64,000 bases of DNA from a virus. Of this stretch, positions 15,720 to 58,999 are shown one piece after another. Position 1 is the stretch's first letter. Every line of letters starts with the position of its first letter. The DNA is taken from IMG/VR virus record IMGVR_UViG_3300031857_000015, positions 124,001 through 188,000 of that record. One strand, 5' to 3'. A model generated the notes under the pieces. The model was not told where the DNA came from and did no database searches. It was given only the letters and a program-made list of their open reading frames with translations. A program made the translations under genes and the position numbers.

Positions 15720-16349
15720 TCATGTATGCAGAGCTGTCTTACGCGAAACGGAAGAAAACAACCGATAAATTTCGGCGTGCGTTGCGTCGGCGGGCGAGTC
15801 AGCATTGATGTGATGCACAATGCTGGCGTGCGGTCTATGCGCCGCGTGTGTCTTATACGCCGCACGCATCCTATGCTGATCCTCGATACACCGGCGCTCG
15901 TACCGGTCGGGTTGTGTGTGACCGACTGGGCGCCGCTTCCTGACGTTCTCCGGCGCTATGTCCATGAGAAACAGAATGTCGGGGCAAATATATGACGTCT
16001 CGCGAAAAATGTTAACGATCAGGTCAGTCGATATGTTATTTATTTCGCCCTGATACACAAGCGTCGACAACAACCACCGGTCACAAATAACTACCTGCTC
16101 TTGCGCGAGTAGTTCGCGAATATGCTCGGATAGCTCTGCGCGGGCGGCAGAGAAAAGCAGCATTTGCGCCGCGGGCGTAATAGGCGCGTCATTGTGCAAA
16201 AGGATTTGCCGAATAGCAGTACCAATGCGCGTTGTTCCCGGATCTGCTACCTGCGTTGCGGCTACGCCTTCTTTATGCAACCGCTGCAACAACATGCGCG
16301 CCTGCGTAGTTTTACCGGCGCCATCGATTCCTTCGAAACAAACGAACAC
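15720..16349 (-). CDS. tmk: Thymidylate kinase (dTMP kinase)
   Basis: The protein has 209 residues, the usual length for this family. It should phosphorylate dTMP to dTDP with ATP in the cytoplasm, feeding phage DNA synthesis. The P-loop is at the N-terminus (CFEGIDGAGKTTQA, residues 4-17). The DR motif appears as VICDRWLLSTLVYQG, and VADPGTTRIG occupies the place of the usual EPGGT-type loop. A lid-like segment (RKRRPVGHTQPDRYE) precedes the last helices. The start is GTG 16349 behind AAAGGA; no upstream ATG fits. It lies among virion-side genes rather than in the replication block. Confidence 0.93.
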   Translation of the reverse strand: MFVCFEGIDGAGKTTQARMLLQRLHKEGVAATQVADPGTTRIGTAIRQILLHNDAPITPAAQMLLFSAARAELSEHIRELLAQEQVVICDRWLLSTLVYQGEINNISTDLIVNIFRETSYICPDILFLMDIAPENVRKRRPVGHTQPDRYERRCIEDQHRMRAAYKTHAAHRPHASIVHHINADSPADATHAEIYRLFSSVSRKTALHT

Positions 16350-16363
16350 GAGGTTCCTTTCGC

Positions 16364-16678
16364 TTAGCGACCTGTGATCTGAAAACTGGGAGACTCGCCG
16401 GCAATTGGCTTGGTAATTTTGCTCTGACTACCTGTGATTCCGACATCACCGGGAACAGCAATCACAAGCTCAGCAATTGGTTCAAATAACAATAACTCAC
16501 GCCCGTCGGCAAACCGCAAAGCGAGCCCGTTTGGCGTATGCCCGACCCCGACAACGCTATTTGTGGCAAGCCATGTGGCCGCATACTCACAAAACGCTTT
16601 GAGCTGGTCGCTAACGAGTTCTGGTTTGTTAGACGTAAAATCAGCAAGGATGTTATTCAACACTTCGCTTGCGGGCAT
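16364..16678 (-). CDS. Hypothetical protein, 104 aa
   Basis: The start ATG at 16678 follows AGAGG and overlaps the 3' end of the HD-domain gene by 26 bases. The N-terminal half is helical (VLNNILADF, VSDQLKAFCEYAATWLA). The second half is beta-rich (VVGVGHTPNGLALRFADGRE, LLLFEPIAELVIAVP). The family is not recognised. It is co-transcribed with thymidylate kinase downstream. Confidence 0.75.
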   Translation of the reverse strand: MPASEVLNNILADFTSNKPELVSDQLKAFCEYAATWLATNSVVGVGHTPNGLALRFADGRELLLFEPIAELVIAVPGDVGITGSQSKITKPIAGESPSFQITGR

Positions 16679-17414
16679 ATCGAACCTCTCTTTTCTTTTT
16701 AACGGGCGCTGGTTTCGCTATTTCTGCTTCGGCTGACTTGGCGCGTATCCCGGTTGTATGTTGTGCAACCATTTTGTCAAGTTTGGCTTTTTGACGACAC
16801 TCTTTAATTGCCCGGCTGACGTCACTCAAAAGGTTACGCGCGGCGTGAGAGAACAAGCGAAGCACATAAAACCGCTCGGCGGCGCGCAACGCTAATAGAT
16901 CGCCGTCAAGCTGGGTAAGAATCTTCTTTGCTTTTGGCGCGGCCGCTGTGCCATTCGCCGCGACCAGCGCTAGCAAATCTTTAGCGGTACAAATAATGTC
17001 GGAAAGCACGATGATTTGCGCGCCTACCGGACTGCCGCTGACGCGACCACGAAACTCCATATCACGCTTTGTCTCGACCATGCGAAAATCGCGGCTGATG
17101 TCCGCAACCATGGCGGCCACCTGTACCGTCGAGATCTCAGCTATGTTCTCAAACGCGCAAGCACTTATGTTTAGAACATCGTGCAGCAGTGCGCCCTGAA
17201 TAATCGCCGCAATACTGTCTTTCGTATCGTCGGGTAGATAATCGGCGCGGACGTCTTGATACAGTTTATGCGCAATTGTCTCCGCCTGTCGGGCTACCTG
17301 TTTGCTGTGCTCTACAAGACTAATTCCGGCGGTTGTACGTAAATCTCGATAGTGCTGCTCGGCGAAAGCCAGTATTTGCCGTAACGGCACTACTGGGCTG
17401 TCAGATTTTTTCAT
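16653..17414 (-). CDS. HD-superfamily metal-dependent phosphohydrolase-like protein
   Basis: The protein has 253 residues from ATG 17414, chosen because GGAG lies 6 bases upstream; an in-frame GTG at 17435 is the alternative. An HD-type metal site can be traced: H36 (LVEHSKQVA), H78-D79 (GALLHDV) and D139 (AQIIVLSDI). HD proteins hydrolyse phosphate esters of nucleotides or alarmones. The order and the last motif recall the hydrolase half of RelA/SpoT, but the Glu-Asp pair that normally follows HD is replaced by Leu-Asn, so alarmone hydrolysis is doubtful. The C-terminus is a basic tail (APVKKKREVRYARKRS), perhaps for nucleic-acid contact. The gene lies between a glycosyltransferase and small unknowns. 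Confidence 0.6.
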   Translation of the reverse strand: MKKSDSPVVPLRQILAFAEQHYRDLRTTAGISLVEHSKQVARQAETIAHKLYQDVRADYLPDDTKDSIAAIIQGALLHDVLNISACAFENIAEISTVQVAAMVADISRDFRMVETKRDMEFRGRVSGSPVGAQIIVLSDIICTAKDLLALVAANGTAAAPKAKKILTQLDGDLLALRAAERFYVLRLFSHAARNLLSDVSRAIKECRQKAKLDKMVAQHTTGIRAKSAEAEIAKPAPVKKKREVRYARKRSVE

Positions 17415-17431
17415 GGCATCTCCATATGCCG

Positions 17432-18475
17432 TCACACAAGTTTGAGCAGCGTTTGCCAGCCTAACTCAAACGATTTGCGGCGCGTTGATAAGTTGTAATT
17501 CACCCGGCGATTCAAGTTGTCGATGTGCATTGGTTCTGCAATAAGCGTTTGCAAGCCAGTGATCAACCGTTCATAGTCTGGCGCTGCGTGAGGAACGCCA
17601 TTTTCGTCGTAGTCTACTCGTGTTTTTACAAGTACGCCATTCGCATCTTGATATACAAAGTCAATCTGCGGGGACAGCGCAAAAGACAACACCGGCGTCC
17701 CGCAATTAATCGACGTCAGGCTGCAAAAGCCGTAGTTGTCGCACTCAGCAGGGAAAAGCGTCAGGTCGTGCGCCGTGTACATGGCTGGGCGTTTTGCAAG
17801 CGGCGTGTTCCGCACGAGCTTGACGCGCCCGTTTGTTTTGCGCCCCAGTGTTTGAAAAAACTTGGCCACAGAGGGTGCAAACCGACACGACGTAATAGCG
17901 ACTGTTAGCTGCGCGTCTGGCATGCGTTCGAGAAGGTAGCCCAGCAGCCCTAGAAATTGGCTGTTGGCGCAGCGGGCGTTGCGGTCGAACCACGGTAAAA
18001 ATATCTTTACCTGCCGCCCGTTCGCCGGTTTCGTTTTCTTTGTCGCGGGCAAGCCAACGTCGAACGGGATGTACGTGACGTTCTTGAATTTATAGACCTT
18101 GGCGAACAGCTCGCGCGCCTCTGAATTCATCGCGACAACATGATCAGCACGCTGCATCACCTTACGAAACGGCCTGATGAGTTCTTGCCACATGGGCACA
18201 ATAATTGTCCGCACCTCAAAACGCCGCGTAAAATTTAGCGTATCAAGCTTGGGCGGCTGGGTGTAAATGATTGTGTGACATGTTTTTGCCCAGTGGGTAA
18301 ACGGACATTTCTTTTTATGCACTACCGCGCGGTCGTGGTGCGTGCACAATTTGGCCGGCGTGGCGTCTGAGTAGATTGTGTACTCTACGCCCTGTGTGCG
18401 TAAAAAATCAGCAAGCCGCACAGCAAAGTACGCTTCGTCGCAGTGGGCGTAGTGTGTATAGATACCAATACGCAT
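17432..18475 (-). CDS. GT-B-fold glycosyltransferase (GT4-like)
   Basis: The protein has 347 residues. The N-terminal Rossmann half begins MRIGIYTHYAHCDEAYFAVR. The linker (KNVTYIPFDVGLP) and the C-terminal donor-binding half (KIFLPWFDRNARCANSQFLG, then LFPAECDNYGFCSLTSINCG, then TPVLSF) follow the GT4 plan, in which a Glu and a Gly-x-Pro-Val loop bind the nucleotide sugar. Such phage enzymes decorate DNA bases, virion proteins or host surface sugars. The acceptor cannot be told here. It begins 4 bases after the portal gene with a weak ribosome site, so it may be translated by coupling. A modified-base role is less likely because no hydroxymethylase is in the window. Confidence 0.78.
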   Translation of the reverse strand: MRIGIYTHYAHCDEAYFAVRLADFLRTQGVEYTIYSDATPAKLCTHHDRAVVHKKKCPFTHWAKTCHTIIYTQPPKLDTLNFTRRFEVRTIIVPMWQELIRPFRKVMQRADHVVAMNSEARELFAKVYKFKNVTYIPFDVGLPATKKTKPANGRQVKIFLPWFDRNARCANSQFLGLLGYLLERMPDAQLTVAITSCRFAPSVAKFFQTLGRKTNGRVKLVRNTPLAKRPAMYTAHDLTLFPAECDNYGFCSLTSINCGTPVLSFALSPQIDFVYQDANGVLVKTRVDYDENGVPHAAPDYERLITGLQTLIAEPMHIDNLNRRVNYNLSTRRKSFELGWQTLLKLV

Positions 18476-18478
18476 GGG

Positions 18479-20401
18479 TTATTGAGCTGGAGCGCCTTGG
18501 CCAAACTGCTGCGCCATAACCATCGCGCCGCCCTGAGAACGCGCCTGCTGCCGAATGTCGTCGATAATGCTGGTTACAAGCGCGTGCATCGTTGAATCCG
18601 AGCGCTTGAGTTTAATCAGCTCAGAATCCTTTAGAGATTCAGGCATAGATAGTAATTGATTCGCAATAAGCTGCGCTTGTTGTTGCAGCTCTTCGGGCGT
18701 CCGCGGCACGTTCGGCGAGTTTTGCCGCTGCATAAGAAACTGATCGACGGGGCTGGGCGCCTGCCCCGGCATTGCGCCGGCGGGAGCTGGCGCTGGCGCG
18801 GCGCCGGCTTGCGGCATACCAGTCGCGCCGGCACCAGTGTTGCCGACACCTGCCATCATGTCGGGCGCCTGACTCATGTCCTTCATTTGCTGCGCTTGCT
18901 GCATCTCGGCCTGCATGCGCTCCTGCTCTTCCGCGTAGATCTTCTCTTCTTCGAGCATCTGTTTGATCTCGTCGCGGTAGTCCAGACCCACGCTCGACAG
19001 GCCAGTGCTCTTGCTGATCTGCTGCCCTTGCATGAGCTGGAGCTTGGCCATCTGCCTATTGAGATCGTCGGCATGCGTGACGCGCGTCAGCTTGGCGTTA
19101 ACCGGCTCCCACGACATAACACGGGAAATAGACGACACAAGCTCGTTTAAGAACAAGTTCATGTTGTGCGGTAAGTGGCTCCAGTTCGCCTCAAATAGCC
19201 GCAGCGCTGCCGGGGCAGCCTGCAGGGTAAGCGTGCCGTTAAACAGCTCGACCGGCATGCCGATGCACTTCAGCAGCGTCTCTAGGCCCTGATCTAGCAA
19301 GTCTCGTGGTGCAAGTTGAGACGCGTCGCCGCCGAGTGCCTGATACTGCACCGGGAACGGAAGAATGTTCCAGCGGGCCGGGTCGGTGCGGCGAGCACGA
19401 ATCATCGAATTTACACGCGCCGTAAAGCTTGACAGGTTAATCGTGTGAACAGGATCGGACGACTGCGCGTCGCCGCCGCGGGGCATCGGCGTGATCACGC
19501 GGAACGGGATAACATAATCGAGCGCCACGGCTTCGTTGTAGCGCTTGAGGATCTGGTAATACCAAGCCTCGCGAAAATTCGACAGCACGCGCGAAATACC
19601 CCAACCGCGATTTCGCATGCCAGAAAGTGCGTCTTCTTTCAAATGAAAAATCACACCCTTATCAAACATCAAATTCTGGCCGCTCTTGATCGCCTGAATA
19701 ACTTCCCAGCTGGCGCGCTCAAGATGATGTAAATGTCCCTGTTTGATTAGCGTTCGATAGTCTTCTGGGATCTTCCAAACATATGAGCATTCGCCGGTGT
19801 ACGGATCCCATAAGATATCAATTTCGTGCGGACTCCAGCGCTTGACCGTGATATGACTTGTATCGCCGCTGCGCCGATCCACGTGTTTCCACGCGCCGAC
19901 ATATTTGCATTTTGGGCAGCTGGCGTGAAACTGGAAGTTCTGCCACGAAAACGCGCACTGGTCTGAGTTCATTACCCGATCAAGCGGCATTTCAAGTCCG
20001 CATTTTGGGCAGAACAGATAGCGCCGAAAAGGTACCAGCAGGCTAGTAAATGAATTTCCGTAGGTCATGTAATCCATGCCTACAGAGTGCAATACGTTTT
20101 TAATGCTTAGCGTGTCGGCTAAAAACGTTTCGTATTTTTCTTTCTCTTCGCGGCCCGTCTTGTTTTCGCCGACGTCCCGAATTTCAACGTCAGTAATAAA
20201 ATAGGATACGACGCGGTCAATGGCCTGCCTGTACGGGCCATTCGCGTTCATGATGTATTCCGTCCACCGAAGTGCCGTCTGGATGCTCTCAGGCATCGAC
20301 AGGCTGGCTACGTCGCAAAACGGATCTGGAAAGCGCTCGTCGGCCTGTACGCCGCGGCCGAGCGAGTTATATCCCATAGAAGCAGTTGGTTGGAGCGACA
20401 C
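18479..20401 (-). CDS. Portal protein with zinc-ribbon insertion
   Basis: The protein has 640 residues and starts at GTG 20401 behind GAGG. Portal features include an N-terminal part with ALRWTEYIMNANGPYRQAID, the segment SVGMDYMTYGNSFTSLLVPF, and a later stem/wing region (VIFHLKEDALSG, WGISRVLSNFREAWYYQILK). The crown has LDQGLETLLKCIGMPVELF and TLQAAPAALRLFEANWSHLP. A long Gln/Met/Pro-rich tail follows. The portal forms the dodecameric ring at the head vertex through which DNA is packaged. C131, C134, C149, C162 and C165 form two CPKC knuckles that look like a rubredoxin-like zinc ribbon inside the clip/wing region. No terminase or capsid gene is in the window; they should lie elsewhere in the genome. 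Confidence 0.8.
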   Translation of the reverse strand: MSLQPTASMGYNSLGRGVQADERFPDPFCDVASLSMPESIQTALRWTEYIMNANGPYRQAIDRVVSYFITDVEIRDVGENKTGREEKEKYETFLADTLSIKNVLHSVGMDYMTYGNSFTSLLVPFRRYLFCPKCGLEMPLDRVMNSDQCAFSWQNFQFHASCPKCKYVGAWKHVDRRSGDTSHITVKRWSPHEIDILWDPYTGECSYVWKIPEDYRTLIKQGHLHHLERASWEVIQAIKSGQNLMFDKGVIFHLKEDALSGMRNRGWGISRVLSNFREAWYYQILKRYNEAVALDYVIPFRVITPMPRGGDAQSSDPVHTINLSSFTARVNSMIRARRTDPARWNILPFPVQYQALGGDASQLAPRDLLDQGLETLLKCIGMPVELFNGTLTLQAAPAALRLFEANWSHLPHNMNLFLNELVSSISRVMSWEPVNAKLTRVTHADDLNRQMAKLQLMQGQQISKSTGLSSVGLDYRDEIKQMLEEEKIYAEEQERMQAEMQQAQQMKDMSQAPDMMAGVGNTGAGATGMPQAGAAPAPAPAGAMPGQAPSPVDQFLMQRQNSPNVPRTPEELQQQAQLIANQLLSMPESLKDSELIKLKRSDSTMHALVTSIIDDIRQQARSQGGAMVMAQQFGQGAPAQ

Positions 20402-20413
20402 AGGCGCCTCGCG

Positions 20414-20563
20414 CTATTTAGACGTGTTATGCACAGTGTCCGCAGCTCTCTTGCGGAAATCACTATCAAGCGCCTGAACTTGCGCTTTCTTCTCTGTGGG
20501 CTGCGCCGCGTCTTCATGTTCCGGGGGCGTGACGCCGGCTTTTATCACTCCGCACTTTTCCAT
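20414..20563 (-). CDS. Small hypothetical protein, 49 aa
   Basis: This short gene fills the gap between the 305-residue gene and the portal gene. It starts at ATG 20563 with GAGG 8 bases upstream, begins MEKCGVIKAGVTPPEHED, is rich in Lys, Glu and Asp, and ends RAADTVHNTSK with a TAG at 20414, 12 bases before the portal GTG. No family is recognised. The position and the good ribosome site support translation. It may also keep ribosomes coupled onto the portal gene, whose own start is GTG. Confidence 0.6.
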   Translation of the reverse strand: MEKCGVIKAGVTPPEHEDAAQPTEKKAQVQALDSDFRKRAADTVHNTSK

Positions 20564-20566
20564 GAT

Positions 20567-21484
20567 TTAAACCTCGTCGTAATTTGCCCGCAGGGCGCGC
20601 TCAACGAGTAAAACACAGTACTCGCGGTTATCATAAACATACTGAAATCCCGTCGTATGGACAAGGTATAACCGCCGATCGTCGTTAATTTGCACGGCCC
20701 ACGGACGCTGATACGGATCGTTTGACGGCGGAAACCAACGGGCGGCGTTTTGCTCAAAACGTAAGTCGTAAATTAATACGATAAAGCCGTGCTCTTCAAC
20801 ACTCTCGGGCGATACCTGCGCAACGGACACAATTACGTCGTGAAAAAACGCGGGCACTGTGCCAATGCCCTCTTTTTCAAAATACAGCAGTTTCTGCGGC
20901 GGGCCTGCTTTGTGCGCTGTAGCTGTTGCCGTCGGGACGGGATTGTTTGATTGTTTCTTCAAACCAAACGCGGCCATTGGACTGTAGTTTCGATCAATTT
21001 TTTCAAGCGGCGGCATCGCTGGCGCGGGCTGGTCTAACTCAGCCACCAAATTTGCTTCTAACTCTTCTTCAGTATCTACAGGTTGCGGGACTGGCGGTGG
21101 TACGGGTTTTTTCGCGCGCACACTCGGTACCCGCTGTACACCGGCTTTTTCCATTTTTGCCAACTCTTCAAAAACCATAGCCGCGCGCTCCCTGATCGAG
21201 TCGATATCATTACCCGGAATAGCTGCCTGCGCAGACGACAACGCCTGCTCAACCGCCGGACCGGTCATCTGGTCAAGCGTCAACCCACCGACATTTGAAC
21301 CGTTGGGGTCGACGACGTTAATTTTGATCTTTGTCCGATCGTGCGGATTGAAGTTGATCGGGATCCCGCCCGGTGTTGCGGGGGCGACGATTACACCTTT
21401 GAGGCCCTTGCTGCCGCGCATAACGTCGAGCATAGTGCGGCCGTTTTCCATACGCTCGCTTGCCGGGTCTCGGTAGTCGGCCAT
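20567..21484 (-). CDS. Hypothetical protein, 305 aa, next to portal
   Basis: The start ATG 21484 follows TTGGAG. The N-terminal third contains LKGVIVAPATPGGIPINFNP and KIKINVVDPNGSNVGGLTLD. A Pro-rich linker (RAKKPVPPPVPQPVD) separates it from a C-terminal beta-rich domain (LLYFEKEGIGTVPAFFHDVI, RLYLVHTTGFQYVYDNREYC). No known family is recognised. It starts right after a strong terminator hairpin and precedes the portal gene, so a head-vertex or packaging-related role is possible but inferred from position only. Confidence 0.75.
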   Translation of the reverse strand: MADYRDPASERMENGRTMLDVMRGSKGLKGVIVAPATPGGIPINFNPHDRTKIKINVVDPNGSNVGGLTLDQMTGPAVEQALSSAQAAIPGNDIDSIRERAAMVFEELAKMEKAGVQRVPSVRAKKPVPPPVPQPVDTEEELEANLVAELDQPAPAMPPLEKIDRNYSPMAAFGLKKQSNNPVPTATATAHKAGPPQKLLYFEKEGIGTVPAFFHDVIVSVAQVSPESVEEHGFIVLIYDLRFEQNAARWFPPSNDPYQRPWAVQINDDRRLYLVHTTGFQYVYDNREYCVLLVERALRANYDEV

Positions 21485-21500
21485 AAAAGCTCCAATAGCT

Positions 21501-21544
21501 AAAAAAAGGGGGCAACGAGTGGCCGAAGCCTAAACGTTGCCCCC
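21501..21544 (-). terminator. Rho-independent terminator
   Basis: On the minus strand a perfect 10-bp stem (GGGGGCAACG pairing with CGTTGCCCCC; arms 21535-21544 and 21508-21517) encloses a 17-base loop with a nested GGC-TTC-GGCC. Seven T residues follow (21501-21507). The upstream arm overlaps the stop codon of the 95-residue gene. Only about 17 bases separate the T-run from the next start at 21484, so no full promoter fits between them. The site may be an attenuator that lowers expression of the portal-side genes. Confidence 0.88.
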
Positions 21545-21817
21545 GAAAGATTCTGAACTCAACTCAGGGCACACTGAATACAGCCGCGTTTTCGGAACAT
21601 GAAAATACAGCCGACCCAGCGGAACCCCACCACCACAAACCAGTTTGACGTGCTCTTCTGTCGGCAGTACCTCAGCGAGGACTTTGCCGGAGATGAGCTG
21701 CGCAACCACCAAACCCGTTCCATTATCGTCTGGAAAGAACGGTAACGTACTCGGCGCGGCGTCGATGTTTAACAACCACGCTAACGTCGAGTCGTCGGGT
21801 TTGATGAAATAACGCAT
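21530..21817 (-). CDS. Hypothetical protein, 95 aa
   Basis: The start is ATG 21817 (MRYFIKPDDSTLAWLL), 8 bases after the preceding stop; the longer in-frame extension lies within that gene. The sequence is beta-rich with short Pro/Gly turns (PFFPDDNGTGLVVAQLISGK, CGGGVPLGRLYFHVP). No family is recognised. Its stop lies in the stem of the terminator that follows. Confidence 0.7.
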   Translation of the reverse strand: MRYFIKPDDSTLAWLLNIDAAPSTLPFFPDDNGTGLVVAQLISGKVLAEVLPTEEHVKLVCGGGVPLGRLYFHVPKTRLYSVCPELSSESFGGNV

Positions 21818-21825
21818 GTCAGTAA

Positions 21826-23064
21826 TTACACACCAGCAATGCGCATACGAACACTTTCTGCGCACTCAACTGCTTCTGCGGAACTAACGTGTTCCGAAGG
21901 CTGGTAACTAGACCGCTTCGGAACAAACTCGACCGGCGCTAGCAACTCGCCGCGATACGGAAATGGCGTGTTCTGCCATTCCGCCGCCCAGTTAACCTGA
22001 ATAGCGCTGAGGCGACTCAACACTAAAGGTTTAGCCGGAAACATCGCGGCTGTAAATAGCTCCTCGTCGGTCGCTTCCCGCTGCGCCCGCTTAGGAGCGC
22101 AGAGCCGCAAATAATTTGCGGCCGCAGACGGCATCTGCTCGATAGCCGTTTTGATATCAATCGTTACTTCCAGCGGCTGATCGGGCGACAACAACGCGTC
22201 ACACATTTCGCTTTCGGTGGGCTTGATATCGCCTACCTCGGCATACATTCCGCGCAGAATGTCGTCCAAAATCCACTGGGGCATCCCTTCAGCCGTCTCC
22301 AGCCCGTGCCGAGCCAGAATCTTACCGGCCGGGTTCGGTAACGACACGGTCATGTCGCTCACCGAACCAAAAGGATTTCGATCCATATCGCCTAACACAG
22401 GCGAAAAATCTTCGAGCGCAGCGTCGTGCTTAATCGCCTTGGTGACATCCTTAGCCGACTCTTCAGTGAGCGCAGCAACGTTAATGTACGGCTTATTGCC
22501 GAACTCACGAATCATGCTGTCGCGCAGCTTGCGCCGGTAAGTCTCTACCAACTCCGACGGAGCATTCTGGATGGCCAATGCGGTCAACTTATCCTCGTCA
22601 ATCCGCATGTGGTCACGAACCGGAATATACACCGTCGGCCAACGGCAGGGCTCAAACGTTACCGTCTCGCCCCGTTTATCGGCATATCCGTAGTTGCAGA
22701 TGTTATGAAGCATGTCACAGCCACGCTTTGCGTTGAGCCTGTGCTTCTGCTTATTCATATTCAACTGCGATCCGAAACCCTTGGGCGAGATCGGGGCTCG
22801 AAAGTCCCACTTGCCAAGCGTCTCTAGAAATACGTTGCCAGACCGATCTGCCAGCGCCATCGCCGGGGACAGAGTCAGACCAGCATGCCGAGTTACTTCA
22901 AGCACTAACGCTGACGGCCGAACTTTATCGCCGAAACGCCGCGTGGGCGAGTCGAACTTTTTACCTTCGCCGGCCAGCCAGCTGACCGCTACGAACTCTT
23001 CGCAGCGCGCCGCTACCCGATCGAAAGCCGCGATAATCGTTGCCTGTGTCTTCGCGATATCCAC
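21826..23064 (-). CDS. Hypothetical protein, 412 aa
   Basis: The start is GTG 23064 with a strong AAGGAG 7 bases upstream. The N-terminus has SWLAGEGKKFDSPTRRFGDK and ALADRSGNVFLETLGKWDF, the middle is charged and helical (SELVETYRRKLRDSMIREFG), and the C-terminus has Pro-rich beta segments (EWQNTPFPYRGELLAPVEFV). No known fold is identified. The length and lack of catalytic motifs would fit a virion structural protein, but this is a guess. Confidence 0.75.
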   Translation of the reverse strand: MDIAKTQATIIAAFDRVAARCEEFVAVSWLAGEGKKFDSPTRRFGDKVRPSALVLEVTRHAGLTLSPAMALADRSGNVFLETLGKWDFRAPISPKGFGSQLNMNKQKHRLNAKRGCDMLHNICNYGYADKRGETVTFEPCRWPTVYIPVRDHMRIDEDKLTALAIQNAPSELVETYRRKLRDSMIREFGNKPYINVAALTEESAKDVTKAIKHDAALEDFSPVLGDMDRNPFGSVSDMTVSLPNPAGKILARHGLETAEGMPQWILDDILRGMYAEVGDIKPTESEMCDALLSPDQPLEVTIDIKTAIEQMPSAAANYLRLCAPKRAQREATDEELFTAAMFPAKPLVLSRLSAIQVNWAAEWQNTPFPYRGELLAPVEFVPKRSSYQPSEHVSSAEAVECAESVRMRIAGV

Positions 23065-23272
23065 TATCTACTCCTTTATTCAAGTTACCATCCTTGACGG
23101 ATTGAGTTCCAAAGTGTTTCGACGAATATAAGGCCCACTCATTCGGAGTTACGACAATCTCTTCATAGTCTCCACTAGAAGTCTTGTCGTAAAACTGAAC
23201 AAGCGTCCGAGTTACATCGAGAACTTCCTGTCTTCGCACAGGACGTCCTTGGAATCTCACAACATCACGCAA
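22961..23272 (-). CDS. Possible small protein overlapping the 412-aa gene
   Basis: This frame covers the otherwise empty 23065-23272 stretch and then runs 104 bases into the next gene. A TTG at 23272 follows AGGGGGG at suitable spacing; an earlier in-frame TTG at 23347 is an alternative. The first part looks protein-like (RRQEVLDVTRTLVQFYDKTS and EEIVVTPNEWALYSSKHFG). The part inside the overlap is Arg/Gly-rich and looks like a shadow. It is either a real gene with a long 3' overlap or a gene whose frame is broken near 23070. The bases 23273-23379 upstream hold no clear gene, only a weak GCTGAA...TTCAGC inverted repeat. Confidence 0.4.
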   Translation of the reverse strand: MRDVVRFQGRPVRRQEVLDVTRTLVQFYDKTSSGDYEEIVVTPNEWALYSSKHFGTQSVKDGNLNKGVDSGYREDTGNDYRGFRSGSGALRRVRSGQLAGRRR

Positions 23273-23379
23273 ACACGAGTCCCCCCTTACAGCAATAGAG
23301 CTGCGGTTATTGATGCTGCCCGCGCTCAACGATAAAGCGCAGTACAATAAATATGCCAGCTTATGCTGAAAAATTTAGT

Positions 23380-23832
23380 TCAGCTGTCTGGGTCGGGCAG
23401 CACGCCGTCGAAGACGTTTAGAGCGCCGTCGTCTTCGTCAGAAAAGAAGTCACCTGAGTTTACAGATGATTTTGGCGCATTAGGCGCCTTGATTGCGGGG
23501 GGCGCTTCAAGGTGCACAGGGTCGACGCCAAGGTAACCGGTTTCATCTGGTTCAAGGTTGTCTGTCGCCATATCAAACAGAGGCATGTTTCCCCACGGCG
23601 TCAGCAAATACCGCAACGGCGGTTTAGATATGTTTAACCGCACACCAGCAAAGCTAAACACGCTGACGTCACGATTAACCAACTCTTTCAGGCGCGCGGT
23701 CAGTTTCTCTAGCGCGTCAAACTCCTCGACTTTGAAATCGCCTTCCGGGCTAAGAATAACAGCATAGTAGTGCCCGGGAGCTTCAGCGCCTTCGGGTGTG
23801 ATTTTGACTTCGGGGTTCGGTGCGTCGTCCAT
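23380..23832 (-). CDS. Hypothetical protein, 150 aa
   Basis: The start is ATG 23832. The first half is a compact alpha/beta segment (GHYYAVILSPEGDFKVEEFD, ALEKLTARLKELVNRDVSVF) followed by KPPLRYLLTPWGNMPLFD. The C-terminal 60 residues are acidic and low complexity (SSVNSGDFFSDEDDGALNVF). No family is recognised. It is tightly coupled to the next upstream gene, with a one-base gap. Confidence 0.72.
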   Translation of the reverse strand: MDDAPNPEVKITPEGAEAPGHYYAVILSPEGDFKVEEFDALEKLTARLKELVNRDVSVFSFAGVRLNISKPPLRYLLTPWGNMPLFDMATDNLEPDETGYLGVDPVHLEAPPAIKAPNAPKSSVNSGDFFSDEDDGALNVFDGVLPDPDS

Positions 23833-23833
23833 G

Positions 23834-24475
23834 TTACTCTCTCATGTCTAGCGGATCTTTGCCGTTAAACCCGGCCATCAGCCCAGCTTTGTAAATGCTT
23901 GGCGGGATAAGGTGTGGTTGGGTTGTGCTCACGCATCGCACAATCGCGGGCCCGTTAAACTGCGGGTCAACATACGCGACAAATTTGTTTGACATCACGC
24001 CAACCACGTTTACTTCAAGCGTCTGGCCTGTGCGCGACGTCGGGTCGAGGATGATCGCCGTCTGCATAAACGAACTGGCAAACAAGTTAGTGTTTTGATT
24101 CGAGTATGCGATGCCGCCAAGAAATTCAAAGCATTCTTCTTTGCGCCGATGGTCGATGCAGTAAAGCCGTTTATCCCAGTTGACTGCTCTCGACCGGCCG
24201 GGTGCGGGCGTGACACCAAACCCAGAAAAAAACCGCTCACGATCACGCGCTAAGTCGATAAAAAACGGCCGCAGCTCTTTCGACTCCGCGGGGAAGCGGG
24301 CGTCAAACTCAATCACCGGGTCTCGGTCAAAGCCGCCGCGCGTAAAGAGCAGCGCGGCTGTAAACAACACCAACGGGTGCTCACGCTGGCTGAACGCGTC
24401 GGCGCACGAGAGCGGCGCGATGGCGTCAGCGCCCGTGACTTCATCAATTTTAACAAACGTGTCCGGCCGATTCAT
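23834..24475 (-). CDS. Hypothetical protein, 213 aa
   Basis: The start is ATG 24475. The segment LFTAALLFTRGGFDRDPVIE and later VEVNVVGVM-like strands (TLEVNVVGVMSNKFVAYVDP) suggest a beta-rich protein. It has no signal peptide, clear membrane span or catalytic motif. It follows the resolvase gene by 6 bases and is probably in the same operon. The function is unknown. Confidence 0.72.
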   Translation of the reverse strand: MNRPDTFVKIDEVTGADAIAPLSCADAFSQREHPLVLFTAALLFTRGGFDRDPVIEFDARFPAESKELRPFFIDLARDRERFFSGFGVTPAPGRSRAVNWDKRLYCIDHRRKEECFEFLGGIAYSNQNTNLFASSFMQTAIILDPTSRTGQTLEVNVVGVMSNKFVAYVDPQFNGPAIVRCVSTTQPHLIPPSIYKAGLMAGFNGKDPLDMRE

Positions 24476-24481
24476 TCCGCA

Positions 24482-25123
24482 TCACTGTTTTTTTGCGTTC
24501 GTTAATCCTGCATTTGTTGTCTGTATCAGCAGCAGCAAAACAAACGCTGCGTCCACAACGTTATCGATGCCGGTTGATTTGTACTTTGCCGAATCAAAAG
24601 CCGCTCCCAGAGATTTGTTTGCCGCGGCGATCATATCTTCTTTACTTGCTTTGCCGTTACCAGTTGCGAACTTTTTAATTGTACTAATCGCAAAGCCGGT
24701 GGAGATCAAATCAGCTTCTTCAGCCCACGTGGCGACAGTGACCTTCATGCCGCCCAAAACCTCAGATGCTGTCGCGACCCGGGAAAGCACGGCCGGAATG
24801 CCGAACTTTTTGTTGACAAAGAACTCGCGCGGCGGCGTGTACTTGACGTCTTCGTAGCCAACGACGTCCGGCGCTACAGTGTTTAGAAAAGCACGCAGGC
24901 GTACAAACCGGGAAGCGCCGGATTCGAGGCCCTGTACCGACAGGTCCCACTGAAAAAGCTGCAGTTTTTCCTGCAGCATTTTCTTGCCGGGAATGAAGTC
25001 GTAAACCGCGACACCGCAGTTACTACCCAAATCGAGCCCAAGGAACCGAATCGCGTCCGCCGGCTTTTTATCCAGCTTTGCCCCAAATTGCTTGGGGTCT
25101 TTGTACATCCTGTACTTGGGCAC
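24482..25123 (-). CDS. RuvC-like Holliday junction resolvase (RNase H fold)
   Basis: The protein has 213 residues. I choose GTG 25123 because AGGAG lies 6 bases upstream and it clears the preceding stop. The RNase H-fold acid pattern can be seen: D31 on the first strand (FLGLDLGSNCGVAVYD), E91 (DVVGYEDVKY), a KASKEDMIAA helix and a late Asp cluster (STGIDNVVDAAFVLLL). Phage enzymes of this family cut branched DNA, both recombination intermediates and junctions that would block packaging. The order strand-Asp, Glu, Lys-helix, DxxDA matches bacterial and phage RuvC. It acts with the RecA and Rad50/Mre11 genes of the window, though it lies far from them. Confidence 0.82.
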   Translation of the reverse strand: MPKYRMYKDPKQFGAKLDKKPADAIRFLGLDLGSNCGVAVYDFIPGKKMLQEKLQLFQWDLSVQGLESGASRFVRLRAFLNTVAPDVVGYEDVKYTPPREFFVNKKFGIPAVLSRVATASEVLGGMKVTVATWAEEADLISTGFAISTIKKFATGNGKASKEDMIAAANKSLGAAFDSAKYKSTGIDNVVDAAFVLLLLIQTTNAGLTNAKKQ

Positions 25124-25136
25124 GAAACGCTCCTGA

Positions 25137-25811
25137 CTATTTTGGGCCGGGGTAATCGGTTTGCTGAGACGACCAAGCAACGAACCGCTGCCACAACGAC
25201 GGTTTAGTTTGTTTAGCCGCAGCAAACGCCGCGGAGCACTCGCTGAGTTTTGCTTGCGTGTCTTGCAGCTCCTTATACACCACGTTGAGCCGAGTCTGCA
25301 ATACGTCGTTCATCATTTTCAGATGCTCAGCCATGAAGTTGGCATTGTAAGTCGGCGTGCCGTTGCGTGCGGCAAATTCAACAACCGTCGCCGCGAAGCG
25401 CGCCATACCGCTAGCGGCCGGCGACTCTTCACCAATCACAGATACTTCGCGCACACCCTTGAACCACGCGGCACAAAACACTTCGCCAATCGCCGCGAAC
25501 AGCGCCAACCGTACTGGATATCTAAACGCGAAAAAGTCGCGCCTGTTCAACGCCTGATCAAACGTGCGCACCGGGTCAGCGCCGTTGACAAAATCGCGCT
25601 GCGCCGCCGCCAGCGCCTCGGCAATTTTTACAATCTCGTCCTGCGATATGTTGTGCTCGATATACCAGTTTGCCGCCTCATCTGTGCGGGCCGCGGCGTC
25701 GAGATTTTCAATAGCGCGAACCATGAGCGTCGGAGTGATGTACGCGTAGTCGCGTTCCGGGTTATACAGCGGTCCGCTGTCACCTTTCTGCCTGTAACCA
25801 ATGCTGCTCAT
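25137..25811 (-). CDS. Hypothetical protein, 224 aa
   Basis: The start is ATG 25811 (MSSIGYRQKGDSG) behind AAAGGA; the long N-terminal extension in frame overlaps the next gene and looks spurious. The middle is helical (MVRAIENLDAAARTDEAANW, VKIAEALAAAQRDFVNG). A coiled-coil segment (MMNDVLQTRLNVVYKELQDT, QAKLSECSAAFAAAK) lies near the C-terminus. The function is unknown. Confidence 0.72.
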   Translation of the reverse strand: MSSIGYRQKGDSGPLYNPERDYAYITPTLMVRAIENLDAAARTDEAANWYIEHNISQDEIVKIAEALAAAQRDFVNGADPVRTFDQALNRRDFFAFRYPVRLALFAAIGEVFCAAWFKGVREVSVIGEESPAASGMARFAATVVEFAARNGTPTYNANFMAEHLKMMNDVLQTRLNVVYKELQDTQAKLSECSAAFAAAKQTKPSLWQRFVAWSSQQTDYPGPK

Positions 25812-25821
25812 AAAATCCTTT

Positions 25822-26673
25822 CTATGATGCGGACTCAACCTGCCGCGCTGCGCTTTGCCGGCACCGTACGCACAACAAACTAGAATCCTTGGGATCAAAA
25901 AACGCGTCTGTCCGACACGCGTCGCAATAACGCGTTTCGTATGTACGCTGGTGCGTCGCAAACATGCACTGGTCGGCACCAAGCCAACAATGCAGGCACG
26001 AGTGCTCGTACCCGTCAGGGCACGGGCGGGCGCGAGTTCGGACCTCGATAAGTCCGCGGTTGTCGCGCTGCATGCTGCTGCTTACGCTCACTTTTGAAAA
26101 CGCCGGCTGCTCTCGACTGCGCTCGGCTTCAACGTGGGCGAAGAACAACAGGTTTAAAAAGTGCGCCGCTGTTGTATACGGATACGCACCCCACGGCGCA
26201 GAGAAACCCAGCGTCTGCGAAATCGCTCTACAGCTGTTCTGCGAGAAAAACTGCGTAACTAACATTGCCGCAGGAGAACCGCCGACAGCGCGACATTCAA
26301 GCATATAACCTGAAACAGTTTTACGCTTATATGGCCGCACGCCTTCTACGCACACGGGCACCAGCTCATCCTCCAGTTGCCGCGTCCACGGCAACACCGG
26401 GAGCCCGGCTTTGAGTGTTTCAACGTTGCCCGCGAGGCGCCACGCCAGCTCGTAAGCGGCGCGCTTCGACAGCCGCGTGCCAGCCAGCGCGCGTACAGAA
26501 TCAAACACCGCCGGCTGCGAAACTGCGGCCGGCAACTCCGCAAGTACGTCACGACAAATGTCGCGCAACGTCTCTCCGGCTACATTCGCATCTATGTATG
26601 GCCGAAGCGCGCGTTCCGCAAGTTTGTCGCGATACTGGCGCAGACGCACATAACTAAACGGAGGGCGTTTCAT
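25822..26673 (-). CDS. Hypothetical protein with C-terminal Cys clusters, 283 aa
   Basis: The start is ATG 26673 preceded by GGGG, overlapping the upstream gene by 20 bases. The N-terminal two thirds are helical and Arg-rich (RLRQYRDKLAERALRPYIDA). The last 70 residues contain several Cys pairs (HSCLHCWLGADQC, RYCDACR, LLCVRCR) that look like one or two structural zinc sites. No family is recognised. Zinc-ribbon tails of this sort often mediate protein or nucleic-acid contact. Confidence 0.7.
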   Translation of the reverse strand: MKRPPFSYVRLRQYRDKLAERALRPYIDANVAGETLRDICRDVLAELPAAVSQPAVFDSVRALAGTRLSKRAAYELAWRLAGNVETLKAGLPVLPWTRQLEDELVPVCVEGVRPYKRKTVSGYMLECRAVGGSPAAMLVTQFFSQNSCRAISQTLGFSAPWGAYPYTTAAHFLNLLFFAHVEAERSREQPAFSKVSVSSSMQRDNRGLIEVRTRARPCPDGYEHSCLHCWLGADQCMFATHQRTYETRYCDACRTDAFFDPKDSSLLCVRCRQSAARQVESAS

Positions 26674-27316
26674 CAGCGCCCCGCAACGTTACGTCTGATG
26701 GAGTTGGCAGCTGGCCGGGATCTACAGCAACAGTGTTTTGAGACGTGACACCCCGTACAGCGTCGCCGCTACGCGCCACGACCTTACGATCGGGGTTATT
26801 GGCCTCCCACTGTTGCCGCGCTTTGTTACACGTTTCTTCGGCGCTCGTGGCCGTTTCTTTGACCGCCAGCGCTTCTTGCTCTAGCGCCAGAATAATCGTG
26901 CCCAGCTCGCTCGACAGCAGGTTGGCAATGTCGCCGACGCAAATAACGTTCTTGACGTGAGCAGTAACGGGCTCCGATTCCTTACCGTCTTTAACCGACC
27001 GAAACGTAATTGCAATGTCTTCGAGCTTGATGGTTTCAGGCAGCGGGTCGCTGAGCGTCTTGCCGTGCAATTCTGCGCCAATCTGCCGCAGGGCATTAAA
27101 CCGCGTATACATCTCTTCCATGCGCGTGGCGGCGTCCTTGATCAACGTAGACGGATTCACTTTTACCGTCTGCGGCTGCGAGGCCGCCGTCTGCAGGGCC
27201 TTTGCCAGCGCCGACGCGTCCATCTTAATCGGCACCGTAACGTTGGTAGTTCCGCCGGTGCTCTGGGCTGCGGGAGTTTCAGACTTGACTGCGTCTACAA
27301 TCGTCGTTTTTGCCAT
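26654..27316 (-). CDS. Hypothetical protein, 220 aa
   Basis: The start is ATG 27316 (MAKTTIVDAVKSE) with AAGGA 8 bases upstream. The N-terminal 40 residues are Thr/Ala-rich and low complexity. The segment DAATRMEEMYTRFNALRQIG looks coiled coil, and LALEQEALAVKETATSAEET is another long helix. The C-terminus is disordered. No family is recognised. A helical scaffold-like or accessory virion protein would fit the composition, but nothing in the sequence proves it. Confidence 0.7.
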   Translation of the reverse strand: MAKTTIVDAVKSETPAAQSTGGTTNVTVPIKMDASALAKALQTAASQPQTVKVNPSTLIKDAATRMEEMYTRFNALRQIGAELHGKTLSDPLPETIKLEDIAITFRSVKDGKESEPVTAHVKNVICVGDIANLLSSELGTIILALEQEALAVKETATSAEETCNKARQQWEANNPDRKVVARSGDAVRGVTSQNTVAVDPGQLPTPSDVTLRGADETPSV

Positions 27317-27326
27317 TGTTTCGTCC

Positions 27327-27731
27327 TTAAATTGTTTTAACTGCAAACCCAAACCAATAACGTAACCCGCTATTCAATCCTGTGTCGGGATCATACAACA
27401 ACTCCACCGGATTTCCAGTCGCCACATAAAAGTGGCTGACGGGCCGTGGTAGGTAAGCTGCGCAAGATAACCCGCACTGCAACAGAAACGCCATCGCGAG
27501 ATCTGCCGCCGGATTTAGATCGTACGAAAAAAGCGGAATTCGTAAATACTCGTCGTGCTCGGAAAAAGCCCATACTGGCTGCTCGCCGGGAGTATGCGCG
27601 GCATCCAGAATATGCCACTTAGACCCGCCTACCTCGTCAATCGGCTTTATCAACGCTGGCTCAAAAGGCACGCCCTCCGGCCAGCGCTCCCGAGTCTTTT
27701 TCATATCTAAACGGGCGACGGAAACTTTCAT
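27327..27731 (-). CDS. Hypothetical protein, 134 aa
   Basis: The start ATG 27731 overlaps the preceding stop (ATGA), so translation is coupled to the glycosyltransferase-like gene. The sequence is compact and aromatic-rich (EPALIKPIDEVGGSKWHILD, RPVSHFYVATGNPVELLYDP, RYWFGFAVKTI). The family is not recognised. The coupling suggests a linked role with its neighbour. Confidence 0.72.
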   Translation of the reverse strand: MKVSVARLDMKKTRERWPEGVPFEPALIKPIDEVGGSKWHILDAAHTPGEQPVWAFSEHDEYLRIPLFSYDLNPAADLAMAFLLQCGLSCAAYLPRPVSHFYVATGNPVELLYDPDTGLNSGLRYWFGFAVKTI

Positions 27732-35975: not shown

Positions 35976-36010
35976 GTCTGCAACTATAGCAGACAAAACC
36001 ATTCTGTCTA
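35976..36010 (-). promoter_or_regulatory. Sigma70-like promoter with inverted repeat around -10
   Basis: On the minus strand TAGACA (36005-36010; 5/6 match to the -35 consensus) and TATAGT (35983-35988; 5/6 match to -10) are 16 bases apart. A perfect GTCTGC...GCAGAC repeat (35989-35994 and 35976-35981) flanks the -10 and looks like an operator. The -35 overlaps the polymerase stop codon. It would drive the 454-residue gene and recA-like gene. Confidence 0.65.
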
Positions 36011-39000
36011 GCCCTTCTCGTCACAAAACCAATCGACTCCCAAACCCCTAGATTTCTCGGGTTTTAGGTTCTCTCCCCAGTGGAAAAACACGTCACGACT
36101 CATACCAAAGTGGTAAGGTTCGGCCACGTCGATTTTGGTGCCGTCGAGCCTGTGCGGCCAAAACGGAACACCGTCAATCATGCACGCCGGAATAACTTCT
36201 TTGTACAAACGCTCAGCGTGCTCTAGCGGCACAATTAACACAATCGCGTCGTGAATCTGCAGCGCGATTTTGTAATCAATATCCGAGTGTTCTTCGCGGT
36301 ACTTGTAGAAGTTGTAAAGCGCGATAGACACGGCGTCAGCTACTCCACCTTGAATCGGGAAGTTCTGTGCCTGCCGCTCTTGCTCGCCACGTACGGCTCG
36401 GTCCTTCGTCGGCATGAACCGGCGAAACCGACCGTACGGACCTACCAGCCACCCCGGATCTTGCGACCGCATACGGCATTCTGCAAGAAACGTCTTAGTA
36501 CCGGGATAAGATTGGAAGTAGGCGTCGATCATCGCTTGGCACTGATCGGCTGTAACGTCGTGGCCTTCCTCTTTGCATTGACGCGCAAGAGCTTCTGAAC
36601 CGCGGCCGTACGGAATACCGAAATTCACGTTCTTGGCTGCGACACGAAGACCCTTTACGCCAGCGTCCACCATACCTTGTTTTGTAGGCGTGACGCCGCT
36701 AAGCCGGAATGTCTTAACCGCCTGCTGGCTGTGGATGTCGTAGTGGTCCGGGTGATCCTCTGGCAGAAGATTACGCCGGACGTGCTCAATCATATTTTTA
36801 TCTTGACTCAACCACGCGAGGACCGCCAATTCCGCACCAGTGAGGTCCGTTTCGATCCCGATGCAACCTTTGGGTACACGAAGGATTGAGCGGACGGGAT
36901 GCTGGTATTTATCTTTTCCGAGGATACGCTTGTAGTCGTCTTCCCGCCGCGAACTAAGGTTTTGTAGCGGCGGACGACTGCTGCTTGCCCGACCTGTTTC
37001 CTTGGTCTGAAACATGTGAGTACGGACTTTACCGTCAGAGTGGACGCACCCAACAAGACCTTTTTCATACGTGTAATTACCGTTCTCATCGAGTTCGTAT
37101 TCTCCGTCTTCTGTTTCAGCGGGTTTGCGCAAGACCGACTGCAGCACCTGACTAATGAATTTATAGTCACGGATTTTCGCTGCCGTCGAGTTCATGTGAC
37201 CAAGAATGCCCAGACTCTCCTTGTCCGTACTGGGCGTGGCTGTCTCTGGGTTGATGCCGCGATACGACATTTCATTCCACAGCACAGGACGCTTACCGGT
37301 TGTCTTCACCGGGCGCAGGTCAAGCGTTTGCGCGTCTTCCGGGATTGGCGGTGAGTTCGTGTACCGGTCGGCAAAGTCGCGGCCGAAAAGCGCTATCGCC
37401 AATTGGGGCTGCGACTTTGGATTAAACGCCGGCCACTGCAGCTCCTCGCGGATTTCAGCCAGCAGTCGTTCCTGCGTGTTCATAAACAACGTGGTCAGCT
37501 CATCCGCGCGATTGCGGTCGATTTCAAGGCCAGTCATTTCCATCTCTAGAAACGCCAGCGATGAGTTGTGTGCTGTCCAGTACGGCAGCCAGCAGTCATG
37601 GCCTGTGCTGGACCGAGCGATGAGGCCGTCTTTGCCGTTGGTGCCGTAGAACCGCATCATGATTCGACGCGTGACGTCGACGTCATACGAGGCGTACGGG
37701 TGAAGAATATGCGCAGGGCACTCGCCGTAACCACCAACCTCGCTCGCCTTCAATTTGTTATCAGAGCGGTACTTTTTCTTCCAGTGATCAAGTGGCTCCC
37801 AGTAAGTTGGCGCCGCTGTGAATCTCATGGAGCACTCGTCGAGACCGTACCGCGCGCACTCGTTAACGGCGTGGTACATGAGACTTGTATCCCAACCGCC
37901 GTGCGTGCGGTCGTCGGGATCTTCGGCGGGAGCGTACTCCGGGCGTACATCCACGCCAAAATCAAAAAGCCATGGCAAGTCAGCACGGAAAAAGTGCCCA
38001 CCCACACGGACGTTTCTTTCGGGCGTGCTTTTGAGCAGCCGCGTGAGCTGCCGGCGAGCTGCGTCCAGATTTGGCTGAAACGCTTCTGCGCCACCCTGAT
38101 GCCGCAGAACAATCGTGCGCGCCCACTTGTCTTTATTTGATATCTGAACCGTCCGCAGATACGCGCCTTCTTCCGTCGGATACTCGCCGTGCCACTCACA
38201 GTCGATCGCGATGATGTTGGCGTTCGGGTCAGGATCGCTAACCATTTCGTCCACAATTTCCGCCAACGCTGCTTCGGTGTACACGTCGGCATGATCAACG
38301 GCTTCCTCGTCTAAGATCTCATCGTGAATTAGGGCTTTAAATCGACGGATCTGTCCGACGAAATCTTCAGTCACTTCTGGCTTGCGCACCACAAATGCCG
38401 GGTGCATCACCGACAGCGCTTTCATCGTCCGGGGATTGCCGTCTGTGTCTACGGACGAGACGTCGAGGATGCGGCCGGCGAGGCCGGTGATGGCGCCCGT
38501 CGTACGCATGACTGCTTTTGTCGCCTCGTTGCCGAGGCACAGAATAAACTCCGGCTGGACGATGCGAATTTCTTGCTCCAGCAGAATTGCGCAGTTTTTG
38601 ATCCACGCGGCCGGGACAGCCGTAATTTCCATCGGCGGCGCAAACTTGCACGCAAACGTAACGTACCAGTCCTCGTACGCTTCGGGACTGATGCCGCACT
38701 CCTCAAAGATATCAGCCATCATGTTCATGGCTGGACCGGCAGTCGCGTTCAAGCTCTCCATCTCGTAATAGCCGGGGAGCTTGCCGACGATCATCACCTT
38801 GGCTTTGCGCCACGGCCCGTACATCTCTACCGCCGCGCCCCGTTTCCCCCAGCGATGCCCGGGAAGAAACGGTACGGGAATAAGGTCTTTAGAGGACTTG
38901 TGCGAAATCGGCAGATGGAAGTCTGGCCGATACAGCGCGTTGCGGTAGAGATTCGTCAGGTGCGTACCTACAGGCACGGCCTTCTTTTTCTTGGCGCTCG

Positions 39001-58648: not shown

Positions 58649-58939
58649 GCTTTGCTCGCTTTGACGGCAGGATTATGTTGTCATAATCCGAGATTTGCCG
58701 TTTGTAGGGGGGTAAAATGGGTCAAAAATTGCCCGTAACCTATTGGCGTTATTGGGTTTGCAACAACGCGTTCAAGCATTTTTTGTCCGAATTACGCGGA
58801 CCTAGAGTAAGTCCTTCGGACTTACAAGGCCGGCATTTTTTCAGGAATGCCGGCAACTTTGGATGTCTACCGCATGATCGGGGGGTTGTTCAATTAACGT
58901 TGGGCAAATTGGGTAATTTGCGGACAACGTTTGGATAGC
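58649..58939. other. Hairpin-rich intergenic spacer
   Basis: About 290 bases without a convincing gene contain four perfect inverted repeats: GGATTATG-ttgt-CATAATCC (58670-58689), GTAAGTCC-ttc-GGACTTAC (58807-58825), GCCGGCATT...AATGCCGGC (58829-58854) and GCAAATT-gggt-AATTTGC (58904-58921, flanked by AACGTT on both sides). It must hold the promoter of the 58648 operon, but no clear -35/-10 pair is seen. A structured RNA, an origin or a regulatory cluster are possible. Confidence 0.7.
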
Positions 58940-58992
58940 AAAAAAAGAGATTGCATAGGGGCGGGTGTTTGCCCGCCCCTATGCGTAATCTC
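58940..58992 (-). terminator. Strong rho-independent terminator
   Basis: On the minus strand a long hairpin (inner stem GCATAGGGGCGGG/CCCGCCCCTATGC with a CAAACA loop, extended by GAGATT/AATCTC with a small bulge; 58947-58992) is followed by seven T residues (58940-58946). It ends transcription after the ParB-like gene and separates the right-hand operon from the rest. Confidence 0.93.
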
Positions 58993-58999
58993 GTTTCAG

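Follow-up and report, generated by a model that had tools for sequence, protein, structure and literature searches.

A hairpin followed by a run of seven Ts, which ends 16 nt before the ATG of a 305-aa gene in a 198-kb phage record, is an intrinsic terminator as judged by its sequence and fold, and RNA 3' ends are expected there. With slightly better than even confidence, we propose that it closes a transcription unit composed of a 412-aa and a 111-aa gene, and that the 305-aa and portal genes behind it are reached by partial readthrough. The DNA analyzed (referred to as the window; 64,000 nucleotides) comprises positions 124001-188000 of a 198,101-base virus record. No DNA match to the 6 kb around the terminator was found among 50,697 phage records.

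A stable hairpin directly precedes the 305-aa gene

The features of the locus, in window coordinates, are:

18479..20401, minus strand: 640-aa gene, portal protein homologue, located 3' of the 305-aa gene
20567..21484, minus strand: 305-aa gene, starting right behind the terminator (ATG at 21484-21482)
21490..21493, minus strand: GGAG, predicted from sequence to serve the 305-aa gene as ribosome-binding site, overlapping the end of the tag
21492..21503, minus strand: conserved 12-bp trailer or tag, TTTAGCTATTGG here and TTTAGMTATYRG in its family form; it overlaps the end of the T-run
21501..21507, minus strand: T-run (U-tract) of 7 T
21508..21544, minus strand: terminator hairpin, 10-bp stem and 17-nt loop with an inner GGC-UUCG-GCC stem
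21544-21535 and 21517-21508, minus strand: 5' and 3' stem arms, GC-rich, GGGGGCAACG/CGTTGCCCCC
21530..21865, minus strand: 111-aa gene, upstream of the terminator (TAG stop at 21532-21530)
21826..23064, minus strand: 412-aa gene, the first one listed in the unit that the terminator is proposed to close
23344..23379, minus strand: phage-type promoter ACTAAAT ... GGCATATTTATTGT, 22.0 bits, proposed start of the 412/111 unit
58933..58992, minus strand: second strong terminator-like hairpin (-33.6), followed by T7 and GCTATCC, which is the tag minus one base

The stable GC-rich stem stands immediately before the U-tract, as in intrinsic terminators. The predicted folding energy of the RNA from 21500 to 21546 is -26.5 kcal/mol, compared with -11.7 +/- 2.5 kcal/mol in 200 shuffled sequences, none of which reached as low a value (z = -5.9). 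An equally good stem before at least six Ts was found in none of 100 dinucleotide-shuffled whole windows, as judged by a simple stem finder that is not exhaustive, given that the longer hairpin at 58946 also received a score of 0. The built-in terminator scanner omitted the 21508-21544 hairpin, whose 17-nt loop exceeds the scanner's limit of 8 nt. The original prediction of a strong intrinsic terminator just before the 305-aa ATG is thereby borne out at the level of sequence and fold. The TAG stop codon of the 111-aa gene sits within the hairpin, and only 45 nt separate the 111-aa and 305-aa genes. The second strong hairpin lies in a 351-nt gap between minus-strand genes (window 58649-58999), which contains more repeated-looking sequence.

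The 640-aa protein matches the portal ORF gp204 of Salmonella phage Arash (tblastn, 27.9% over 491 aa, E 3e-67), so that the earlier description of the genes behind the terminator as portal-side was correct. At an E-value of 0.001, no PHROGs family was found for the 305-aa, 111-aa and 412-aa proteins and no Pfam family for the 305-aa and 412-aa proteins; the 305-aa protein also had no match in Arash.

The phage itself encodes a multi-subunit RNA polymerase with split beta/beta' subunits, the genes of which lie outside the window (record G000:C1:64380-71643). A 1467-aa protein comprises beta fused to the first part of beta', the later part of beta' is a 626-aa protein encoded by a separate gene, and a 242-aa ORF lies between the two. 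In the phage records searched, the best annotated match of the 1467-aa protein is to Arash (31.8%). According to passages of PMC10585845, the beta, beta' and sigma-like proteins of Arash were detected in virus particles. A homologue of the sigma-like gp10 of Arash is present in this genome (28%, E 2e-17); a Sigma70_r2 search of the genome gave no match, and no homologue was found with Arash gp196 as the query. A search for a T7-type polymerase likewise matched nothing, and neither did its control. The genome also encodes, on the minus strand, a 1055-aa protein with a uracil-DNA-glycosylase-like domain ahead of a family A DNA polymerase (window 36008-39175) and an open frame of 3718 codons (record G000:C1:123876-135032) that extends past the left end of the window. 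A tmRNA gene with an unusually long predicted tag peptide was predicted by ARAGORN on the minus strand (record G000:C1:108758-109102, equivalent to L106:2758-3102), with five tRNA genes within the same 18 kb.

The arrangement is conserved in related phages

Relatives of the 305-aa protein are encoded by 79 loci. With two of them left out (L011 and L078, where the match lacked a gene start), the remaining 77 loci were pooled with the window; this set contains 57 distinct upstream sequences of 110 nt, 56 of them from relatives. Hairpins were called unreliably in L041, L058 and the L065 group, which nonetheless stayed among the 57. Hairpins stand at the corresponding place in the relatives, and their sequence varies between lineages. 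The upstream stop codon lies within or overlaps the hairpin in 55 of the 57 sequences, including L058, which has no convincing hairpin, and it lies ahead of the hairpin in the other two. The T-run before the AG of the tag comprises 6-9 Ts in 51/57 sequences and 2-3 Ts in 6/57; these six retain the tag or a one-base variant of it, and some have long hairpins. A purine-rich site at the ribosome-binding position was found with a loose pattern in 51/57.

The distance from the hairpin end to the start codon is 15-33 nt (median 23) across the 57 sequences. That an ordinary promoter has no room there, as originally predicted for this phage, is thus itself a conserved property.

Paired changes were analyzed in two aligned subgroups of relatives, neither of which has the hairpin type of the window. 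Double changes were observed in two of eight pairs in the first subgroup (15 sequences) and in five of nine pairs in the second (8 distinct sequences), a number that none of 500 shuffles reached. The stem is thus maintained through paired changes in both subgroups.

A conserved promoter-like site lies 1.9 kb upstream

Six repeated sites, spotted by eye upstream of short genes at 99-106 kb of the genome, have GCTAAATA-N16-CATATCTANTGA or close variants of it in common. A matrix built from these six sites revealed two further clear minus-strand sites in a scan of 100 kb, at 112969 (28.2 bits) and 147379 (22.0 bits); the next-best match in this genome, at 116996, scored 16.2 bits. The site at record position 147379 corresponds to 23379-23344 in the window and is located in a gap of 315 nt that precedes the 412-aa gene, 1.9 kb upstream of the terminator. 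At the homologous place, 65 of the 66 loci scanned, window included, reached 15 bits or more, the exception being L058 with 13.8 bits, and the runner-up in the scanned regions never exceeded 10.6 bits. These are the 66 of 78 loci with at least 2600 nt upstream, with near-identical contigs counted separately. In 742 kb of the relatives' loci, with near-identical contigs again counted separately, 71 of 73 matches of at least 15 bits are the site before the 412-aa gene, and the remaining two are on the other strand. In many relatives, the stop codon of a 150-aa gene falls inside the first promoter box, so that part of the promoter conservation is not independent.

Five of the eight phage-type promoters of this genome are followed within 1 kb by a hairpin that bears the tag or a close variant of it; for 147379, the distance is 1.9 kb. 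The pairs of promoter and tag hairpin, in record coordinates, are:

147379 to 145507 (the 21508-21544 terminator)
105922 to 105438
105147 to 104793
104771 to 104274
100756 to 99859
99836 to 99373

The two unpaired promoters are 112969, for which the next tag hairpin is 7 kb on, and 102521, with none before the next promoter. The minus strand of record G000:C1:99300-106000 is a run of short units, several of which consist of a phage-type promoter, a leader, a small gene and a tag-bearing hairpin. This pairing suggests that one polymerase system starts at these promoters and ends at the tag hairpins.

Between the hairpin and the ATG, no phage-type promoter (GCTAAATA-N16-CATATCTA) scored at least 15 bits with the matrix, either in this genome or in the relatives' loci. 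A scan of the minus strand from 16015 to 27417 with a sigma-70-like consensus returned no site; promoters of unknown type lie outside such a consensus. In the best well-covered 5-codon window, synonymous conservation was 1.77 for the 111-aa gene, compared with 2.00 for the 305-aa gene and 1.85 for the portal gene; the last codons of the 111-aa gene, which form a hairpin arm, gave 1.97 on fewer pairs. The highest value among the three genes compared (ratio 2.00) was at codons 270-287 of the 305-aa gene. A promoter of the sigma-70 type within the 111-aa gene was therefore rejected, with no consensus site and, the last codons in the hairpin arm apart, synonymous conservation not above that of the two control genes. 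The original prediction had offered readthrough, antitermination or a promoter inside the upstream gene as routes to the portal-side genes; the last of these found no support, and readthrough appears to be the likeliest of the three.

A conserved tag follows the T-run

The original prediction mentioned neither the tag nor the stop codon within the hairpin, nor the phage-type promoter conserved 1.9 kb upstream. The 12-mer TTTAGCTATTGG occurs as a single exact copy in the window. Its family form TTTAGMTATYRG is exact in 53 of the 57 distinct upstream sequences, and the other four (L031, L056, the L065 group and L080) carry one-base variants, so that all 57 have the tag or a variant. The tag was also found behind other hairpin terminators of this phage group. 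In 119 kb of the genome, 8/10 intergenic hairpin-T-run sites picked by eye carry the tag or a near form. An automatic strict finder returned eight hairpin-T-run sites, all within a 100-kb stretch; four of these bear the tag or a close variant of it. The remaining 19 kb yielded no site.

The records of nine relatives contain 57 exact copies of TTTAGMTATYRG, compared with two of the backward pattern; 8 of the 57 are the locus studied here, and some of the sites resemble coding sequence. A search of IMG/VR with TTTTTTTAGCTATYRGMG found at least 119 stretches, compared with 12 for the backward control, and 118 loci were analyzed. Among the matches listed, these contain 94 distinct sites, and a compact stem stands right before the tag at 61/94, compared with 61/1336 other T-runs and 62/1500 random positions; with this locus excluded, the proportion among the matches listed is 35/67. 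In the nine records, the same strict stem test, which misses long or imperfect hairpins, detected a compact stem at only 19/57 tag sites. A free-energy hairpin test, passed by 42/57 tag sites, was discarded since 38.7% of random positions passed it as well. The tag is thus not tied to hairpins without exception. A hairpin formed by the tag itself (AGCU...AGCU) was rejected because relatives with AGATATCAG do not preserve it. On the plus strand near G000:C1 188397 (L103), and likewise in related phages (L129, L143, L155 and L160), a strong CCCGGGCGGTAG hairpin is followed after ~10 nt by TTTAGATATCAGTC; this arrangement may instead mark the end of a minus-strand gene.

Among the matches listed, 94 of the 118 IMG/VR loci encode something similar (E 1e-8) to one of the searched ORFs of this genome, and the tag therefore belongs mainly to this broad group of phages. 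In bacterial genome contigs, 7 of 8 exact 20-mer tag matches are in Planctomycetota, and several follow hairpins; the lineage was looked up for the Kuenenia and Phycisphaerae matches and is presumed for the remaining ones. One Planctomycetota match adjoins dnaA-dnaN-gyrB. In 294 Planctomycetota genomes, a 15-mer had 16 matches, as did its backward control, and this lack of excess led us to reject the tag as a general terminator feature of the bacterial host. The eight matched genomes gave 19 matches compared with 10 for the control, 8 of the 19 being the matches by which these genomes had been selected. The skew of the 20-mer matches is possibly a hint about the host. Among open-licence PubMed Central papers, none was found on a conserved sequence behind phage terminators, and four spellings of the tag matched a single paper, about a diatom.

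On the opposite strand the tag reads CYRATAKCTAAA, and in this form it makes up the upstream edge of a phage-type promoter at 9/57 sites in the nine records; such promoter-edge sites score 34.6-44.1 bits and represent 10 distinct sequences including this genome's stretch. A TANAAT-like box follows the tag at 12/67 sites outside this locus, among the matches listed, compared with 14/1333 other T-runs. On account of these edges and boxes, the tag may have a role in promoters.

Proposed mechanism and alternative explanations

In the proposed mechanism, transcription by what is probably the phage's own RNA polymerase would start at the phage-type promoter (23379-23344) and proceed through the 412-aa and 111-aa genes to the hairpin, which together would constitute a short transcription unit. 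The hairpin and T-run would stop most of these transcripts, and a fraction of the polymerase would continue into the 305-aa, portal and following structural genes. Such readthrough would feed the portal genes, with the hairpin lowering the dose of the downstream genes, like the terminator between genes 10 and 11 of T7. The ribosome-binding site of the 305-aa gene would begin inside the tag. The tag may contribute pausing or stopping that depends on its sequence, as class II signals do for T7 polymerase, or alternatively may be a binding site that is also used at promoters. A ribosome following closely, on the stop codon in the hairpin, could weaken termination. The hairpin is comparable in stability to other hairpins that end single-gene units, so that termination may be efficient and the portal genes may then have another source. 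The plain account of a hairpin and U-tract also misfits some members of the family, namely the six sequences with 2-3 Ts and L058, which has no convincing hairpin.

In one alternative, the next promoter would be fused to the terminator, where the tag would serve as a promoter or activator element and the portal operon would start in or just behind TTTAGCTATTGG, with a very short leader near GGAG. This we regard as rather unlikely. In all 57 distinct sequences the gap is occupied by the tag, which varies less than the T-run, and both the promoter edges formed by its opposite-strand form CYRATAKCTAAA and the TANAAT-like boxes enriched behind tags outside this locus would fit. However, no conserved -10-like box is seen by eye after the tag at this locus, a phage-type promoter lies within 130 nt after the tag at only 7/94 IMG/VR sites (among the matches listed) and 11/57 sites of the nine records, and at 104274 and 105438 neither a gene start nor a phage-type promoter is found within ~70 nt after the tag. 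Moreover, the tag is oriented here opposite to its orientation at promoters, and the nine edge sites are probably orthologues of two sites of this genome that seeded the matrix, which makes their high scores partly circular. In a reading that would unite both contexts, and that we put forward tentatively, as doubtful, the 12-bp box may be a DNA signal read both ways by the transcription machinery of the phage group, possibly by the multi-subunit polymerase or its specificity factor. It would be direct at the upstream edge of some promoters and inverted behind terminators, where it might halt or recapture the polymerase. Terminators of the group would then combine a hairpin with a sequence-specific box and could dispense with the U-tract, as suggested by the six relatives with 2-3 Ts.

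Termination might also be controlled by translation, with the ribosome that ends the 111-aa gene blocking the folding of the hairpin, so that a polymerase outrunning it terminates and otherwise reads through. A review describes the antitermination of intrinsic terminators by coupled ribosomes and the use of short stop-to-terminator distances as a mark of runaway transcription. In 55/57 sequences, the stop codon is placed such that a ribosome could mask the hairpin, despite the lineage-specific hairpin sequence, and by eye five other tag terminators (99373, 99859, 104274, 104793 and 105438) have a stop codon before the hairpin. Nevertheless, compaction can explain the overlap, given the 45-nt gene spacing; L058, one of the 55, lacks a convincing hairpin; and a single 121-nt fold, of the window sequence only, showed no competing antiterminator structure. 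We consider such control unlikely. It is very improbable that the hairpin serves only to process or stabilize a single mRNA that spans both genes, without terminating transcription. The common strand, the tight spacing and the long hairpins of some relatives with only 2-3 Ts would be in agreement with this role, but the run of at least six Ts ahead of the tag's AG in 51/57 sequences, the enrichment of hairpins ahead of tags at other loci and the promoter conserved 1.9 kb upstream all fit termination better.

Comparison with known systems

T7 polymerase is a single-subunit enzyme, whereas the polymerase of this phage is multi-subunit. As described in parts of PMC9157156, the T7 terminator T-phi between genes 10 and 11 is tuned to be inefficient, and downstream genes are lowered via read-through. 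Judged by that description, both terminators consist of a hairpin and a U-tract placed between genes, in phages that encode their own RNA polymerase. Here the terminator lies between same-strand genes, the 15-33 nt to the start codon in all 57 distinct sequences leave no room for an ordinary promoter, and the consensus scan of the window from 16015 to 27417 listed none on the minus strand. The conserved tag and the stop codon inside the hairpin distinguish the present case, in which read-through is proposed from the arrangement. T7 class II signals (ATCTGTT / TATCTGTT) are short and sequence-specific and affect pausing or termination with no need for a hairpin, according to portions of PMC9157156 and PMC9624206 (VSW-3). 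The tag, also a short sequence signal, may be analogous in its putative role in pausing or termination, but it differs in sequence and polymerase type and is often located behind a hairpin.

In phage AR9, which has two multi-subunit RNA polymerases, operons end at predicted terminators and 13 late promoters lie inside ORFs, as reported in passages of PMC5312081. To that extent, both phages have a multi-subunit polymerase and units closed by predicted terminators, but the promoter motifs differ, and the same passages of PMC5312081 describe no tag behind AR9 terminators. Several hairpin-T-run sites of Arash are likewise located just before an ATG, but no TAGMTATYRG tag was seen by eye among the 19 Arash hairpin sites listed, two of which are one hairpin. 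The stoperators of L5-type mycobacteriophages are short asymmetric intergenic repeats with an orientation fixed to transcription; they are bound by repressor and need no hairpin. The tag may be likened to them as a short asymmetric repeated intergenic site oriented to transcription, but it is often found behind a hairpin here, and we know of no protein that binds it.

If the tag belongs to termination, phages with multi-subunit RNA polymerases would possess a terminator element that acts through its sequence. The proposed arrangement, if true, would help to show where their short units end and how the dose of structural genes packed directly behind a terminator is set. The stop codon kept within the hairpin would likewise help to show whether ribosomes are coupled to the polymerase during infection.
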